A stretch of 64,000 nt of DNA from positions 64,436 through 128,435 of the forward strand of contig JAMLIO010000004.1 of assembly GCA_023954155.1 (NCBI GenBank). The letters run 5' to 3'. Source of the stretch: Pseudobdellovibrionaceae bacterium. GTDB taxonomy: Bacteria; Bdellovibrionota; Bdellovibrionia; Bdellovibrionales; UBA1609. Shown here piece by piece: positions 4,613 through 48,409 of this stretch. The notes beneath the pieces were generated by a model, which worked only from the letters and a program-made list of their open reading frames with translations, was not told the origin of the DNA and made no database searches. A program made the translations under genes and the position numbers. The stretch's first letter is position 1. Each line of letters starts with the position of its first letter.

Positions 4613-4748
4613 CTGAACGTTAAGAACAGTTAAATGATTTAGACGCCTAAACGTTAAGAGCAATTAAATTATTTACGCACCTAAACGTTAAGAGCAGTTA
4701 AATTATTTGCGTATCTGAACGTTCAGGGTAGTTAAATTATCTACACAG
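4613..4748. repeat. Four tandem 34-bp repeats
   Basis: Units start at 4613, 4647, 4681 and 4715, each 34 bases, with the pattern CT(A/G)AACGTT(A/C)AG followed by an AATTAAATTATTT-like tract. The middle two units differ by only a few bases. The fourth carries the full CTGAACGTTCAG palindrome found elsewhere in the window. Spacing is exact with no unique spacers, so this is not a CRISPR array. It could be an operator array or a simple satellite. Confidence 0.85.
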
Positions 4749-25968: not shown

Positions 25969-27049
25969 AATAAGTTCTTTTATTGGAAGTCAATTTTTAA
26001 ACATTTGGCTTGTATTTGTAATCGGGGTCATCATCACTCATTTGCTGGACTATATTATTCCCAGCTTTGTGATCTGGATGTTGGTGCTCAGTGCAGGCTT
26101 GGGATTTGCGATCTTTGTTGTGAAACAAGATTTGATTCTTTATACCTTAAAACGTCTTGGGGAAGCTCTGGTTGTTTTGTGGGTGATTGTCACTTTGACA
26201 TTTTTGCTTCTTAGGGTGATCCCTGGTGGGCCATTTGATCAAGACAAAGCGCTACCACCAGAAATCAAGGCCAACATTGAAAAGAAATACAATTTAGATA
26301 AACCTCTTTTGCAGCAGTATGGAAGTTATCTGGGTGGACTTTTAAAAGGGGACATGGGTGAGAGTTATAAGTATCTGGGGCGTCCCGTTTCTGAAATTGT
26401 AAAAGATGGTTTACCAGGATCATTTGTTCTAGGGTTTTATGCTTTACTTATTGCCTTTGCGATAGGAATTCCTTTGGGCCTTTATGCAGCCGCAAGACAT
26501 AACAGCTTTGCCGATAATGCGTCTATGGTGCTAGCGATCAGTGGGGTGAGTCTCCCCAACTTTTTGGTCGCGGCCATACTGGTGCAGCTCTTTGCCTTAA
26601 AGTGGGGGATTTTACCTACTTCGGGTTGGGGTTCTGTGTATTACTATATTTTACCCGTAGTCTGTTTGGGTGTACGTCCCATTGCTTTTATTGCGCGTTT
26701 AACTCGTTCAAGCGTGCTGGATGTGATTGGGTCTGACTACATCAGAACAGCAAGAGCAAAGGGCCTGTCAGAGCGAGTGGTGCTGTATAAACATGTGTTA
26801 AAAAATTCTTTGATTCCTGTTTTGACGTACTCTGGTCCTATGGTGGCTGCGATTTTAACAGGATCGTTTGTGATCGAAATCTTCTTTTCTATTCCTGGAA
26901 TAGGGAAATATCTAGTTCAAGGGGTCACTAACAGGGACTACCCGTTGATTCTTGCTTTAACTTTATTGTATTCGGCGGTTCTTGTGATTGCCAATCTTAT
27001 TGTCGATTTGCTGTACGCTTACTTTGATCCAAGGATTCGTTTAGGATGA
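25955..27049 (+). CDS. oppB: Peptide ABC transporter permease, OppB/DppB type
   Basis: 364 residues with an extra N-terminal pair of membrane helices before the usual start (LGEALVVLWVIVTLTFLLLR). The permease core follows with the EAA loop YIRTARAKGLSERVVLYKHVLKN (core residues AKG) that docks the ATPase, and IFFSIPGIGKYLVQ. It overlaps oppA by 14 bp and oppC by four bases, so the three are cotranscribed and translationally coupled. Confidence 0.92.
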   Translation: MNLNKISSFIGSQFLNIWLVFVIGVIITHLLDYIIPSFVIWMLVLSAGLGFAIFVVKQDLILYTLKRLGEALVVLWVIVTLTFLLLRVIPGGPFDQDKALPPEIKANIEKKYNLDKPLLQQYGSYLGGLLKGDMGESYKYLGRPVSEIVKDGLPGSFVLGFYALLIAFAIGIPLGLYAAARHNSFADNASMVLAISGVSLPNFLVAAILVQLFALKWGILPTSGWGSVYYYILPVVCLGVRPIAFIARLTRSSVLDVIGSDYIRTARAKGLSERVVLYKHVLKNSLIPVLTYSGPMVAAILTGSFVIEIFFSIPGIGKYLVQGVTNRDYPLILALTLLYSAVLVIANLIVDLLYAYFDPRIRLG

Positions 27050-27930
27050 AAAAATCAACTAATAGTTTATGGAATGATTCGTTTAAGAGGCTTAAGAAAA
27101 ATAAAGGCGCCATGGTGTCTTTGTGGTTCATAATTTTTATTTGCCTTGTGGCTTTGTTTGCTAAATACATTGCTCCTTACTCTTTTGATGCTCAAAACAT
27201 GGATGCGATTTATGAAGAACCTAATTCTACCTATTGGTTGGGTACGGATGGTTTGGGGCGTGACTTGTTATCACGCACCATTTATGGGGCAAGAATGTCT
27301 ATGGCCGTGGGGATATTTACGGCACTCATCTCTATGATTTTTGGTACCATTTACGGTTGCATCTCGGGCTGGATGGGTGGCCGAGTGGATTCGGTGATGA
27401 TGAGAACTGTGGATATTCTAATGTCGTTCCCTTCATTGATTCTTATGATTTTAGTCAAAGTGGTTTTTGATTCTGTACAAATCGTAGAAAATCCTGAACT
27501 TCGTGCACTGACTTCAATGCTTTTGGCTTTAAGTATTGTGGGTTGGGTGTCTCTAGCTAGGATTGTCAGAGGTCAAGTGTTACAGGTCAAAGAGCTGACC
27601 TACGTGGAAGCCGCAAGGGCCTTAGGAACTCCGAGTTGGAGAATTTTGATCAAGTATATTTTGCCTAATATTTTAGGTCCTATCATTGTGCTTTTGACGT
27701 TTCAAATTCCATCTAACATTTTATATGAATCATTTTTAAGTTTCATCGGCTTAGGTTTACAGCCCCCGTTTAGCAGTTGGGGAGTGTTGGTGAATGATGG
27801 GTACACGTCTTTTGTAGTATACCCTTATCTGATCTTTCCACCAGCAGTAGCCCTCTTTGTGACCATGCTAGCTTTTAACCTCTTTGGTGACGGCCTTAGA
27901 GACGCCTTCGACCCCAAGATGAAGAAATAA
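27046..27930 (+). CDS. oppC: Peptide ABC transporter permease, OppC/DppC type
   Basis: 294 residues: N-terminal OppC_N helix (GAMVSLWFIIFICLVALF), YWLGTDGLGRDLLSRTIYGAR, then the permease domain with EAA loop YVEAARALGTPSWRILIKYI (core EAARALG) and the C-terminal GDGLRDAFDPKMKK. No ATPase (OppD/OppF) gene follows within the window, so these must be supplied from elsewhere. The last nine codons and the stop are copied in inverted form on the far side of the intergenic hairpin at 27904-28131. Confidence 0.92.
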   Translation: MKKSTNSLWNDSFKRLKKNKGAMVSLWFIIFICLVALFAKYIAPYSFDAQNMDAIYEEPNSTYWLGTDGLGRDLLSRTIYGARMSMAVGIFTALISMIFGTIYGCISGWMGGRVDSVMMRTVDILMSFPSLILMILVKVVFDSVQIVENPELRALTSMLLALSIVGWVSLARIVRGQVLQVKELTYVEAARALGTPSWRILIKYILPNILGPIIVLLTFQIPSNILYESFLSFIGLGLQPPFSSWGVLVNDGYTSFVVYPYLIFPPAVALFVTMLAFNLFGDGLRDAFDPKMKK

Positions 27931-28131
27931 ATTCCTTAGCTTTTTTTGTAGAAAGTTTGTAAGTAGATATCTCTATTGAGGCAGACACGCCCCTCCTGGG
28001 CTCTGCCAGCATTTGCCCTTTGGGCAAAGCGCGTCCCGCTTGCTGGAGGTCTGCCTCAATAGAGATATCTACTTACAAACTTTCTACAAAAAAAGCTAAG
28101 GAATTTATTTCTTCATCTTGGGGTCGAAGGC
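27904..28131. repeat. Long hairpin A: perfect 83-bp inverted repeat around a 62-bp loop
   Basis: Left arm 27904-27986 and right arm 28049-28131 are exact reverse complements over 83 bp. The left arm starts inside oppC and includes its last nine codons and stop; the right arm ends at the base before the stop codon of the convergent peptidase gene, so the arms fill the whole intergenic space. The loop has its own small stem (TTTGCCC/GGGCAAA, with GCCAGCA/TGCTGGA-like ends). Its sequence differs from the core in loci B-E. It would act as a two-way terminator. Confidence 0.95.
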
Positions 28132-28971
28132 TTAGTTTTCTATGGTGAAGAGGTAGGCTTGGTCGAGTTCGACTTTTTGGGAGCCTGCGTAGAGTTCGCT
28201 CCAGAGACTGAATTGGATTTTGCCTCTTGTGATGACGTAAGGGGTGACTAGGATTTGGTGGGGCATGTTGGGGTCGGCCACTACTAGACGTTGGCTGGCG
28301 GAGTCTGCGCCTAAAATCAGAATGGCATGGCGAGAGTCTGTGAGGGAGGCATCCATAAACTTCACACTTCCTGCAACTAAGGCGTCACGGCTTTTAAGTA
28401 AGTAAAAGATATGGGTCGAGCTTTGGATGTCTAGGTTTCTGGCTTTAAGCCCCATTTCCTTAAGCATAAAACTACCTTCACTCATGTAGTATTGAATAAA
28501 AGTTCCTTCTCTAGGGTCCATATAAGGAAGTTCTTTAATGCTTAAAGTATAGTTAAAATATTTATCTAAAATACTTTTGACCAGTTGCGGAGAATTTTGG
28601 CTCCAATAGTCTGAAGGGGTTTTAGACATAAGGCTATCTTTGGCAATATAAGCATTAGCAAGACAAGTAGGACCACATAACCCGCCGCCTTCTTTAAGTA
28701 GTCCCATCTCCCCAAGTCTTGGGTCTGACTGATTAAGAAGCTTAGCCGTAGTGGCCAGATTTACAAACTCTTTGGCCCAATTGTTATTACCAAAATAGGT
28801 GCTTTGTAGAAGGGTTGAAGACGTAGAATAAAGATGCGCAGTAGGAACATTGTTTAAATACTTCTCACAGCGACCATATTGAGCCCATACAGAAGTATTC
28901 ACTCCTATAAGCATCCAATAAAACGCAAAAAAAGAATAAAAAATATAACCCTTTATCACATTCTCAAACAT
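28132..28971 (-). CDS. C39-like cysteine peptidase family protein, secreted
   Basis: About 279 residues: a signal peptide (GYIFYSFFAFYWMLIGVNTSVWA), then a papain-like C39 arrangement with the likely catalytic Cys near residue 99 in GGLCGPTCLANAY, His in DSRHAILILGAD, and Asp in VVADPN. It would act in the periplasm or outside the cell. Start taken at 28971, where the signal peptide begins; the frame extends to 29034, but those 21 residues fall partly in hairpin B. It is convergent with oppC, separated only by hairpin A. Substrate unknown. Confidence 0.75.
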   Translation of the reverse strand: MFENVIKGYIFYSFFAFYWMLIGVNTSVWAQYGRCEKYLNNVPTAHLYSTSSTLLQSTYFGNNNWAKEFVNLATTAKLLNQSDPRLGEMGLLKEGGGLCGPTCLANAYIAKDSLMSKTPSDYWSQNSPQLVKSILDKYFNYTLSIKELPYMDPREGTFIQYYMSEGSFMLKEMGLKARNLDIQSSTHIFYLLKSRDALVAGSVKFMDASLTDSRHAILILGADSASQRLVVADPNMPHQILVTPYVITRGKIQFSLWSELYAGSQKVELDQAYLFTIEN

Positions 28972-29014
28972 AGCAAACCCTATGCCCACAAGACCGCCAG
29001 CAGAGTCCTCAGTT

Positions 29015-29285
29015 GCCCAAAATAGGGAGCACATTTAAAGTTAAGGTTCTTGCTTATAGATTTTAGATTACGCCTTCAATTCCAACGCAACAGAGCGGGT
29101 GCAAAGCGTCTTCGGCTTTCGTCATAACTTTTAGATTGAGAGAAACCCCTTTGGGGTCCCCCCTCAATCTAAAACCTATGCCGCAAGTCGGATACGCATT
29201 GCTCGCCTCTGAGGTTGAAATCGAAGGTGTAATCTAAAATCTATAAGCAAGAAACTTAACTTTAAATGTGCTCTCTATTTTGGGC
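29015..29285. repeat. Long hairpin B: 72-bp arms, conserved core with nested palindrome
   Basis: Arms 29015-29086 and 29214-29285 match with five differences in 72 bp. The core carries the family sequences GCGGGTGCAAAGCGTCTTCG and TCGGATACGCATTGCTCG. Its centre holds another hairpin, TTTTAGATTGAG/CTCAATCTAAAA, with an ACCCC/GGGGT inner stem. Both arms contain an ATG followed by the same eight codons (MCSLFWAT), facing outward. It lies between divergent genes, so it is not simply a terminator. Confidence 0.9.
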
Positions 29286-29607
29286 TACGTTCTGCTTGCT
29301 AAGAGCATAAAAATTGGAGTTTCATTTTAAGATGTGAAGGCTAAGTTTTGCTTAAAATTTATCTAAGAGTTTTACATTTTTTCTTTAAAAAAGTGTCTCA
29401 TTGTCTGTAAGGGGCGGTATAATTGAATTTAGTGGGATTTTGTGTCTCACTGTCTTAAGTTGAGAATTTTAAAAATCTCCTGTTTGTTCGTCTAGGATGG
29501 GCTTTCGTCGATAGTCTAGAAGGTGAGGCCTAATGTTTTATTAAGCGAGCCTAGGGACGGATCGCAAGGTATATTAAATACTGAAGCAATTTCTAAGGGA
29601 GTAGAAA
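29286..29607. promoter_or_regulatory. Leader of the VWA gene pair with a direct repeat
   Basis: No gene seen. GTGTCTCATTGTCTGTAA (29393-29410) recurs nearly unchanged at 29442-29458, flanking a TATAAT at 29418-29423 that could be a -10 box. Repeats on either side of a -10 could be regulator sites. No good -35 was identified. Confidence 0.35.
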
Positions 29608-37105: not shown

Positions 37106-37342
37106 GTTCTCTTTTTGCGGGAGCTTTTTCCTAATTCATTTTAGAGTTTTGGATTATACCTTAGATTGCAACCTCCAGAGGCGAGCAATGCGTATCCGAC
37201 ACGCGTTGGCCTGTGGGGCCGTTAGGTCCCAGAGGGTGACGCGTGCCGAAGACGCTTTGCACCCGCTCTCTGCTGCGTTGGAAGCTAAGGTATAACTCAA
37301 ACTCTAAAATGAATTAGGAAAAAGCTCCCGCAAAAAGAGAGC
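37106..37342. repeat. Long hairpin C: conserved core in inverse orientation
   Basis: Perfect 42-bp arms at 37108-37149 and 37299-37340 are followed inward by a short unmatched stretch and then TTATACCTTAG (37154-37164) against CTAAGGTATAA (37285-37295). The 120-bp core between is the reverse complement of that in loci D and E, with only a few substitutions relative to E. It lies between two co-directional genes. Bases 37343-37549 show no further gene, only the leader of the protease gene. Confidence 0.92.
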
Positions 37343-42751: not shown

Positions 42752-42988
42752 CTAGCTAGTTTGGGAATAACTGAAATTAAATCATAAATCTTCAGACATT
42801 TAGATTTAGATTATACCTTAGCTTCCAACGCAGCAGAGAGCGGGTGCAAAGCGTCTTCGGCCTGCGTCACTTTGTGCCGCAGGTCGGATACGCATTGCTC
42901 GACTCTGGAGGTTGCAATCTAAGGTATAATCTAAATCTAAATGTCTGAAGATTTATGATTTAATTTCAGTTATTCCCAAACTAGCTAG
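42752..42988. repeat. Long hairpin D: perfect 70-bp arms around a 97-bp core
   Basis: Left arm 42752-42821 and right arm 42919-42988 are exact reverse complements over 70 bp, ending inward with TTATACCTTAG. The core contains GCGGGTGCAAAGCGTCTTCG and TCGGATACGCATTGCTCG, and its centre is a short stem CCTGCG/CGCAGG instead of the longer centre of C and E. The right arm ends one base past the clpA stop codon, so the left arm carries an inverted copy of it. It lies between two minus-strand genes, clpA and htpX. Confidence 0.95.
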
Positions 42989-46314: not shown

Positions 46315-47001
46315 ATGAAAAAGATGATTTTCCAAAAACAAAAACTCTTTAAATACTTTCTGCTTCTTGCTATAGCATTTACCTTCGCTTCTGTTTTAAA
46401 AGGCATGCTGCAAGCAGTAGAAGAACGCGTTCTGCCTCCACCAGGTGGGATGGAGTATTATTCTTTTGGTTTTGAAGAGACCTTGTCAGACCTGTTATGG
46501 CTCAACTTCATTCAAAACTCCTATGAATGCACACAAAAAAAAGTCTGTGTGCACGATTGGGGATATAGAACACTAAAGCAGGCTACACTGTTAGCCCCCA
46601 AATTTAGATCGTTATACAGTTTAGGAGCTACTAACTTAAGTATTTTGGCGGACGATGATCGTGGTGCCAAAGAGATATTTGACCGAGGATTAGCCGAATA
46701 TCCCAACGATTGGGAGATTAACTATCGAGCGGGTTATCATTATCTCTTAGAACTAGACAATCCCGAAAGAGCAGCCCAACTTTTTGATCAAGCCGCCAGA
46801 TATGGCGCCCCCTTATGGACCAGATCTCTATCTGCTAACCTCTACAGTCGTGTCGGTCAGCTAGAAACCAGCGAGCGCATCTTAAAAGACATGTTAAACT
46901 ACGAAATGGGCGAAGAATGGGAACAAGCCCTTAAAACTCGACTCGAAGAAGTGCAAACCCGCCTCCGCACCCAAAAAATCCAAGACTCCCTCAAGAACTA
47001 G
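46315..47001 (+). CDS. TPR-like protein with N-terminal membrane anchor
   Basis: 228 residues: anchor or signal segment (LFKYFLLLAIAFTFASVLKG), the YYSFGFEETLSDLLWLNF segment, then helical repeats (AKEIFDRGLAEYPNDWEINYR, key residues AxxxFxxGL, and RAAQLFDQAARYGAP) of TPR type. It is probably a periplasmic or membrane-associated scaffold. The position directly after the pilin suggests pilus-related work, but a terminator lies between. Convergent with dnaJ, separated only by hairpin E. Confidence 0.7.
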   Translation: MKKMIFQKQKLFKYFLLLAIAFTFASVLKGMLQAVEERVLPPPGGMEYYSFGFEETLSDLLWLNFIQNSYECTQKKVCVHDWGYRTLKQATLLAPKFRSLYSLGATNLSILADDDRGAKEIFDRGLAEYPNDWEINYRAGYHYLLELDNPERAAQLFDQAARYGAPLWTRSLSANLYSRVGQLETSERILKDMLNYEMGEEWEQALKTRLEEVQTRLRTQKIQDSLKN

Positions 47002-47006
47002 CCCTC

Positions 47007-47283
47007 CTTTTCTGTCCGAGATCTAAGGAACTTTTTAGACTTAGACTTTCATTTAAGTTTAGACTTGAAGATTGAGATTATACCTTAGCTTCGCAGAGAG
47101 CGGGTGCAAAGCGTCTTCGGCACGCGTCACCCTCTGGGACCTAGCGACCCCACAGGCCAACGCGTGTCGGATACGCATTGCTCGACTCTGGAGGTTGCAA
47201 TCTAAGATATAATCTCAATCTTCAAGTCTAAACTTAAATGAAAGTCTAAGTCTAAAAAGTTCCTTAGATCTCGGACAGAAAAG
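47007..47283. repeat. Long hairpin E: 82-bp arms around a 113-bp core
   Basis: Left arm 47007-47088 and right arm 47202-47283 match with one difference in 82 bp. The core carries GCGGGTGCAAAGCGTCTTCG, a centre closed by CACGCGT/ACGCGTG, and TCGGATACGCATTGCTCG; it is nearly identical to the inverted core of C, apart from an eight-base deletion on its left side. The arms fill almost all of the space between two convergent genes (five and ten bases remain). Confidence 0.95.
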
Positions 47284-47293
47284 ATGGGCGTCG

Positions 47294-48409
47294 TTAGAAC
47301 CAGGATTTGCCTTTGATGTCTTCGCCTTTGTCTTTGGCGATTTCGCGTAGGGCTTTTTCTTCTTTGGCGGAGAGAGTGCTGGGGAATTTGACTTTGATTT
47401 TTAGCATCAGGTCGCCGCGTGAGCTGCCGCGTAGGGCAGGGAAGCCACGTTTTTTGATTCTTAAAATGTCGTTAGGTGAAGTTCCTGGTTTGATATTTAG
47501 GACTTGTTCGCCGTCAAAGGTTTCTACTTTTTTGTCGACACCTAGTAGGGCTTGTAAATAAGAAATTTCGATCTCGCCGTAAAGGTCTAGGCCTTGGCGA
47601 TAAAACTTTTTATCTTCTTTCACGCGCAAAACAACGTAGAGATCACCCTTGGGGCCACCCTGTTTTCCTGCATCGCCTTCACCTGTCACACGCAGTTGCG
47701 TTCCATCTTCTATGCCTGCGGGAACGGCAATGCTCAGTTTGCGCATAAAGCTTTCGCGACCTGTGCCTCGGCATGTGGAGCACTTGTCGACAATCATTTG
47801 TCCTGTGCCTGAACAGTGGTGACAGCTGGTAGCAAACGAGAAGAAACCTTGTTTTTGCACAAGCTGTCCCGTGCCGCCACAGTACTGGCACACTTGCGGA
47901 GAAGTTCCAGGTTTTGCCCCACTCCCATTACAAGTGCCACAGTCTTTTTCAGATTCAAATTCAATATCTTTAGCAAGGCCAAGGTAAGATTCTTTGAGCG
48001 TGATGTCTAAAAAATATCTAAGATCAGAGCCCTTACGTGGACCGTGTCGACGAGAAGAAGAGCGTCTTGAGCCTCCCGCCGTCTGTCCTCCAAAAAAATC
48101 TCCAAAGATATCCCCAAAACTTTCAAAAATATCAGACACATCGTGAAAGCCACCAGAGTAACCTCCACCAGGACCGCCACCCATGCCCATTCCTGCATGA
48201 CCATATTGATCATAACGGGCTTTTTTTTGCGGATCGCTCAAAACATCATAAGCTTCTGCTGCTTGTTTGAACTTTTCTTCTGCAGCTTTGTCACCAGGAT
48301 TTTTATCAGGATGGTACTTCATTGCCTGCTGGCGATAAGCTTTTTTAATTGTGTTTGCGTCTGCGGTGCGCTCTACGCCTAAAATTTGGTAATAATCTTC
48401 TTTTGCCAT
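47294..48409 (-). CDS. dnaJ: Chaperone DnaJ
   Basis: 371 residues from the ATG at 48409 ([12 protein letters not shown]); the frame runs on to 48475 but without the J-domain start. The J domain with YHPDKNPGD (His-Pro-Asp) is followed by a Gly/Phe region, four zinc-binding repeats ([32 protein letters not shown]) and the C-terminal substrate domains. It stimulates DnaK's ATPase and delivers unfolded proteins. It is unusually divergent from dnaK rather than downstream of it. grpE is not in the window. Confidence 0.96.

Follow-up and report, generated by a model that had tools for sequence, protein, structure and literature searches.

What writes an exact inverted copy of the end of one gene directly beside the stop codon of the next? 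This question is raised by a hairpin behind oppC in a 64,000-nt stretch of DNA (hereafter the window; contig JAMLIO010000004.1, positions 64,436 to 128,435 of the forward strand) from a Pseudobdellovibrionaceae bacterium. The genome of this organism (G000) is a draft assembly of 2.44 Mb in 15 contigs, and the gene calls used here are open reading frames rather than curated annotation. The locus is laid out as follows:

27046..27930, plus strand: oppC, oligopeptide ABC transporter permease (Pfam BPD_transp_1 and OppC_N; C-terminus common to relatives)
27904..27986, plus strand: left arm, 83 nt, with 27 nt of native oppC coding sequence at its outer end
27967..27986, plus strand: inner arm zone, common to the type-1 family with some variation (..ATCTC.nT..AGGCAGAC)
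27979..28055, plus strand: type-1 conserved core, from 13 own-genome BLAST matches, 20 copies by covariance model, and structure
28049..28131, plus strand: right arm, repeating the left arm exactly in inverted orientation and adjoining the stop of the convergent gene
28132..29034, minus strand: convergent open reading frame of 300 aa with a weak C39-like peptidase match

The two 83-nt arms (27904-27986 and 28049-28131) are 100% complementary and enclose a 62-nt loop, and the folding z-scores of the hairpin (-22.5 as RNA, -24.8 as DNA) exclude a chance origin. An initial annotation, made from the letters of the window, had described perfect 83-bp arms that hold the end of oppC and an inverted copy abutting the convergent stop. 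All of this was confirmed, the stop beginning at the base directly after the right arm (28132), but the codon count was not: the 27 coding nt are eight sense codons (AFDPKMKK) plus the stop instead of nine plus the stop. The neighbor that it called a convergent peptidase is indeed convergent, though the peptidase label is weak, as the Peptidase_C39_2 match falls below the curated cut-off.

The best explanation, and one that we consider probable, is a mobile hairpin whose core causes replication to fold back, thereby copying the flank and keeping the arms identical. What we observe is that the hairpins form repeat families, that near-perfect arms surround a conserved core, that native coding DNA is contained in arms, and that the positions of arm ends are tied to gene 3' ends.

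The loop is the core of a repeat family

Querying G000 with the 228-nt oppC hairpin gave 13 BLAST matches, from which a covariance model of this family (type 1) was built. The model detected 20 copies in G000, about 100 in G011 (sister genus UBA6776), and 4 in G046, a genome from another family of the same order. The core spans about 77 nt and forms multiple hairpins, namely an outer stem, one hairpin (GCCC..GGGC), and a second stem (CCAGCA..TGCTGG) that carries two small hairpins, along with an invariant CTGGAGG. The four other hairpins of the window make up a second family (type 2) with a different core. Both types have the hallmark of a stem-loop repeat family (SLS), i.e., many foldable copies with conserved sequence and structure. 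These results settle what the initial annotation had left as alternatives. Its suggestion of a second element type was borne out, since all four other loci have a common core unlike the oppC loop, and its idea of a core-less product was rejected, since the loop is itself a repeat core, present 20 times in G000. Its statement that the arm was not brought in by an element proved wrong in the form given, because this repeat family includes both the loop and 16-20 nt at the inner end of the arms and, furthermore, the arms of some copies are homologous over 42-50 nt.

Near-perfect arms of 45-103 bp were found in nearly every G000 copy. Outside UBA6776, nearly all examined copies had near-perfect arms of 32-103 bp that were mostly locus-specific, while the core was conserved. 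Specifically, about 16-20 inner nt of the type-1 arms are common to most copies, the stretch from there out to 42-50 nt only to members of small subfamilies, and everything beyond is single-locus sequence. The arm ends are thus locus-specific, with homology stopping 42-50 nt from the core, and do not form the conserved terminal inverted repeats of miniature inverted-repeat transposable elements (MITEs). No phage or plasmid record matched the core, and an origin from either was ruled out for this reason. Likewise, comparison with Rfam gave no match in the window at the gathering threshold and none that was credible at E<=1, which ruled out a known RNA family.

Fold-back chimeras are a known artifact of some amplification methods, and the window comes from a draft assembly. 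An assembly or library artifact is nevertheless highly improbable: the conserved-core pattern is seen again and again, at dozens of loci spread over several separate draft genomes, and arms plus loop are close to or below common read-pair spans.

Some type-1 loci showed additional features. In UBA6776, four loci of G011 (L098, L099, L101, and L106, on contigs 68, 46, 1, and 54, respectively) are dense hairpin clusters of mixed orientation that hold several core variants, including kilobase-long inverted repeats. Subfamily-1 copies have 200-330 nt of flank in common and may ride in a larger repeat; an IS3-type transposase with rve domains (L053:1793-2611) lies 159 nt from one of these hairpins. 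In L054:1429-1645, a C-rich insertion of about 25 nt separates the core from the right arm, and the outer arms are still perfectly complementary.

Arms contain native gene ends

The C-terminal end of OppC (GDGLRDAFDPKMKK and the stop) is identical here and in G025, G008, and G009, and similar in 12 further relatives. None of these 15 relatives has a long hairpin downstream of oppC, where the longest perfect inverted repeat measures 6-14 bp, versus 56 bp for the non-coding part of the arm here. Copying therefore went from the left arm to the right. A conserved terminator behind oppC, the case named beforehand as speaking against flank copying, was ruled out by the same absence (0 of 15 relatives with a long hairpin).

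Native gene ends also occur inside the arms of at least three more loci, which encode an ABC exporter, a siderophore-interacting protein, and an M23 peptidase. These were judged by alignments to solved structures that run through the arm-coded residues, reaching residue 483 of 485, 268 of 271, and 338 of 341, respectively. The C-terminus of RimO (L123) was not counted as a native end, as its alignment extends only to residue 461 and residues 462-464 are the ones encoded by the arm. At oppC and the three further loci, native flank forms one arm and its exact inverted copy forms the other, which is the pattern expected of a template switch, and the donor flank lies on either side of the core depending on the locus. 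The proposal that the arm was made by copying the flank is thus supported both by the native OppC C-terminus and by the native gene ends in other arms.

Arms are matched at the level of DNA

In the arms of G000, 1067 of 1087 cells are Watson-Crick pairs (98.2%), with 5 G.T and 11 A.C. The arms of G011 have decayed (2889 of 3380 Watson-Crick, 80 G.T, 162 A.C). Among copies with homologous arms in subfamilies 2 and 3, we counted 52 joint changes, in which both arms were altered alike (32 transitions and 20 transversions), versus 11 single changes. In addition, the core of L062 is inverted relative to that of L048 within homologous flanks, as template switching predicts (PMC8604942). Near-perfect pairing, joint changes, and an inverted core are marks of arm-to-arm copying of DNA.

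This evidence bears on the idea that the hairpins are functional RNA structures at gene 3' ends, such as terminators or 3'-end protectors, whose arm pairing is held by selection. Such hairpins would be expected to sit right behind stops and to fold very stably, and both are the case: 82 of the 103 gene ends that flank G011 hairpins are 3' ends. The two-to-one excess of A.C (162) over G.T (80) in G011 would also fit weak selection on RNA of the opposite strand. On the other hand, the few G.T cells in G000 argue against selection at the RNA level, which would tolerate many more G.U pairs and hardly yield arms of almost pure Watson-Crick pairing. Relative to the adjacent gene, the core can point either way, the oppC genes of relatives have no such hairpin, and it is not plausible that selection holds 83-103 perfect pairs, coding DNA included. 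We regard this reading as improbable.

Arm ends coincide with gene ends

The outer arm end lies no more than 15 nt from the stop of a neighboring gene in 20 of 34 copies, compared with a mean of 11 when arm lengths were shuffled within each family (permutation p = 1e-4; for the median distance, p below 1/20000). Gene starts are avoided, with 1 of 34 arms within 15 nt of one. Between convergent neighbors, one arm end overlaps its gene by 4-27 nt and the other leaves 0-12 nt before the opposite stop in six of seven close cases. Arms also end at other boundaries: in L060 the arm ends 4 nt from a tRNA-Pro gene, at the 3' end of the tRNA; in G025 both arms start at the stop codons of two convergent genes; and in G055 the starts of three arms (L145, L153, and L156) fall precisely on the base of an intrinsic terminator stem, on the donor side. 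These three arms start at the terminator U-tract, so that the far side carries a reverse copy of the T-run.

Arm ends of this kind favor the chief rival explanation, in which the insertion machinery itself copies the flank. A transposase, HUH nuclease, or reverse transcriptase would insert the core as a hairpin and synthesize the second arm from the target or its transcript; synthesis would stop at the gene 3' end, a terminator stem, or the end of an RNA, and the arms, made once per insertion, would then decay. The gene 3' ends, the tRNA 3' end, and the G055 terminator stem bases all agree with such stops. One-time synthesis would also fit the presence of perfect arms in some copies and of decayed arms in G011, and the conservation of core mismatches across genera, while the arms differ, suggests recognition of the core. 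Against it, no enzyme is consistently present across the genomes with hairpins, and the homologous arms with joint changes show that arms are also inherited and re-matched. We hold this explanation to be rather unlikely.

Two candidate enzymes were rejected. Neither G000 nor G046 has Y1_Tnp, which is common in genomes where no hairpin copies were detected, and only 1 of 18 fetched Y1 loci had a type-1 hairpin nearby; RAYT/Y1 mobilization of the repetitive extragenic palindromic (REP) type was ruled out, as G000 has no Y1 gene and the widespread Y1 genes of other genomes are, with that one exception, not flanked by hairpins. Retron-like reverse transcriptases of mutually unrelated kinds occur in G000 and G011, G046 yielded none, and no core lies next to reverse-transcriptase genes. 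Run-off of a reverse transcriptase on RNA of the 3' untranslated region was ruled out on these grounds. In G000, a helix-turn-helix gene overlaps the retron-like reverse-transcriptase gene (L205:1020-2307), and the reverse transcriptase of G011 (L201) is of another type.

A proposed fold-back model for the hairpins

In the explanation that we favor, a mobile hairpin with fold-back copying, a repeated hairpin element would have landed behind oppC, and its conserved multi-hairpin core of about 77 nt would make DNA synthesis fold back on itself. The nascent strand, having passed flank and core, would pair with itself at the core stem, copy the flank in reverse, and rejoin the template, leaving flank, core, and inverted flank. 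Recurrent events in either direction would hold the arms identical and extend them outward. At oppC, the copy would have run from the oppC side, over the 27 coding nt, to the far side, stopping exactly at the convergent stop; longer copies would have wrecked the convergent gene. Copying would be limited by genes or by GC-rich structure. Arm interiors contain 26-36% G+C and the outermost 10 nt contain 50-54%. Fold-back (template-switch) synthesis as the copying step, and likewise selection at gene ends, are what we infer. Template switching is known to make and maintain perfect stems (PMC8794818, PMC6649704), to homogenize arms and invert spacers (PMC8794818, PMC8604942), and is suspected for coding palindromes in nematomorph mitochondria (PMC6649704).

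Several points weigh against this model. The 80-100 bp arms exceed the published template-switch events with which we compared them, the largest of which is 59 bp (PMC8794818). Subfamily 1 has more single than joint changes (102 versus 44), which means that homogenization is not constant. There is no orthologous junction with and without the element to compare at oppC, because the convergent gene had no match among 58 relatives and the set of relatives includes no congeneric genome. In copies that lie far from any gene end, the arms reach only about 45-65 bp, though nothing would block their growth; simple unbounded growth was ruled out, as these copies are shorter, not longer. Finally, the donor-side edges at terminator stems in G055 are not predicted by selection at gene ends; a physical stop to copying would predict them. 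The fold-back model does not fully explain where the arms end, and either such a physical stop or an enzyme that builds the arms at insertion would account for these positions.

The second family and other features of the window

About 22 type-2 copies are present in G000. Four more genera (G025, G055, G005, and G022) have the conserved type-2 core, internal mismatches included, with unrelated arms. The four members of this family in the window are:

29012..29288, plus strand: type-2 hairpin with arms 29012-29086 / 29214-29288 (92%), overlapping the first codons of the convergent open reading frame
37108..37340, minus strand: type-2 hairpin with outer arms 37108-37149 / 37299-37340 (100% complementary)
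42752..42988, plus strand: type-2 hairpin with 78-nt arms (97%), the right arm holding the stop of a ClpA-like gene (42985)
47001..47289, plus strand: type-2 hairpin with 91-nt arms (96%), filling the gap between two convergent genes

The genes beside the last of these are a TPR gene that ends at 47001 and a DnaJ gene that ends at 47294. The window also contains tandem repeats, with four 34-bp units at 4613-4748 and two 44-bp units at 2185-2272.

Comparison with known systems

REP, ERIC, and GTAG/CGTC repeats are likewise interspersed, mostly intergenic hairpins with tens to hundreds of copies, and some bacterial palindromic or stem-loop families have no dedicated transposase (PMC3733652, PMC2267715). 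The described REP stems, however, are 5-13 bp long and family-specific, whereas the hairpins described here combine a conserved tip with a long, locus-specific stem. MITEs are also short non-coding repeats with inverted ends, but these ends are conserved and recognized by a transposase, and here the outer arms are the unconserved part.

Integron attC sites have a cassette-specific hairpin stem directly behind the stop codon, conserved mismatches in the palindrome, and conserved outer ends. The hairpins described here resemble them in the locus-specific stem behind a stop and in the conserved mismatches. They differ in that the tip is conserved and the copies are scattered instead of standing in cassette arrays, although no search was aimed at arrays.

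The inverted repeats of nematomorph mitochondria (PMC6649704) have long perfect arms that include coding DNA and are suspected of repeat conversion by template switching; unlike ours, they have no conserved core and lie inside genes of a mitochondrial genome. Template-switch mutations that correct quasi-palindromes, following the Ripley model (PMC8794818, PMC8604942), share with our hairpins the reverse copy of a flank beside itself, homogenized arms, an inverted spacer, and changes of several bases in a single step. Most of the known events are short and scattered, whereas here we find a conserved, repeated core, arms of up to 103 bp, and dozens of loci.

Stem-loop repeat families and template-switch palindromes are each already known. 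In the literature that we searched (open-licence full texts), the combination of a conserved tip with long, locus-specific, flank-copied arms that reach gene ends, at dozens of loci in several genera, is undescribed. We tentatively entertain the possibility of a new kind of element, whose core, wherever it lands, would have a stem built from host flank up to a gene 3' end or terminator, merging element and host sequence into a single perfect hairpin under continual re-copying. Template switching aimed by the core seems to write mirror images of gene ends into the genome, which also means that non-coding arms can feed changes back into coding ends. With many natural replicates, arms of known origin, and sharp ends, these loci offer a way to study how such copying begins and ends in bacteria. 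Individual small palindromes are known to be tidied by template switching; here a repeated core seems to target this process to dozens of sites.
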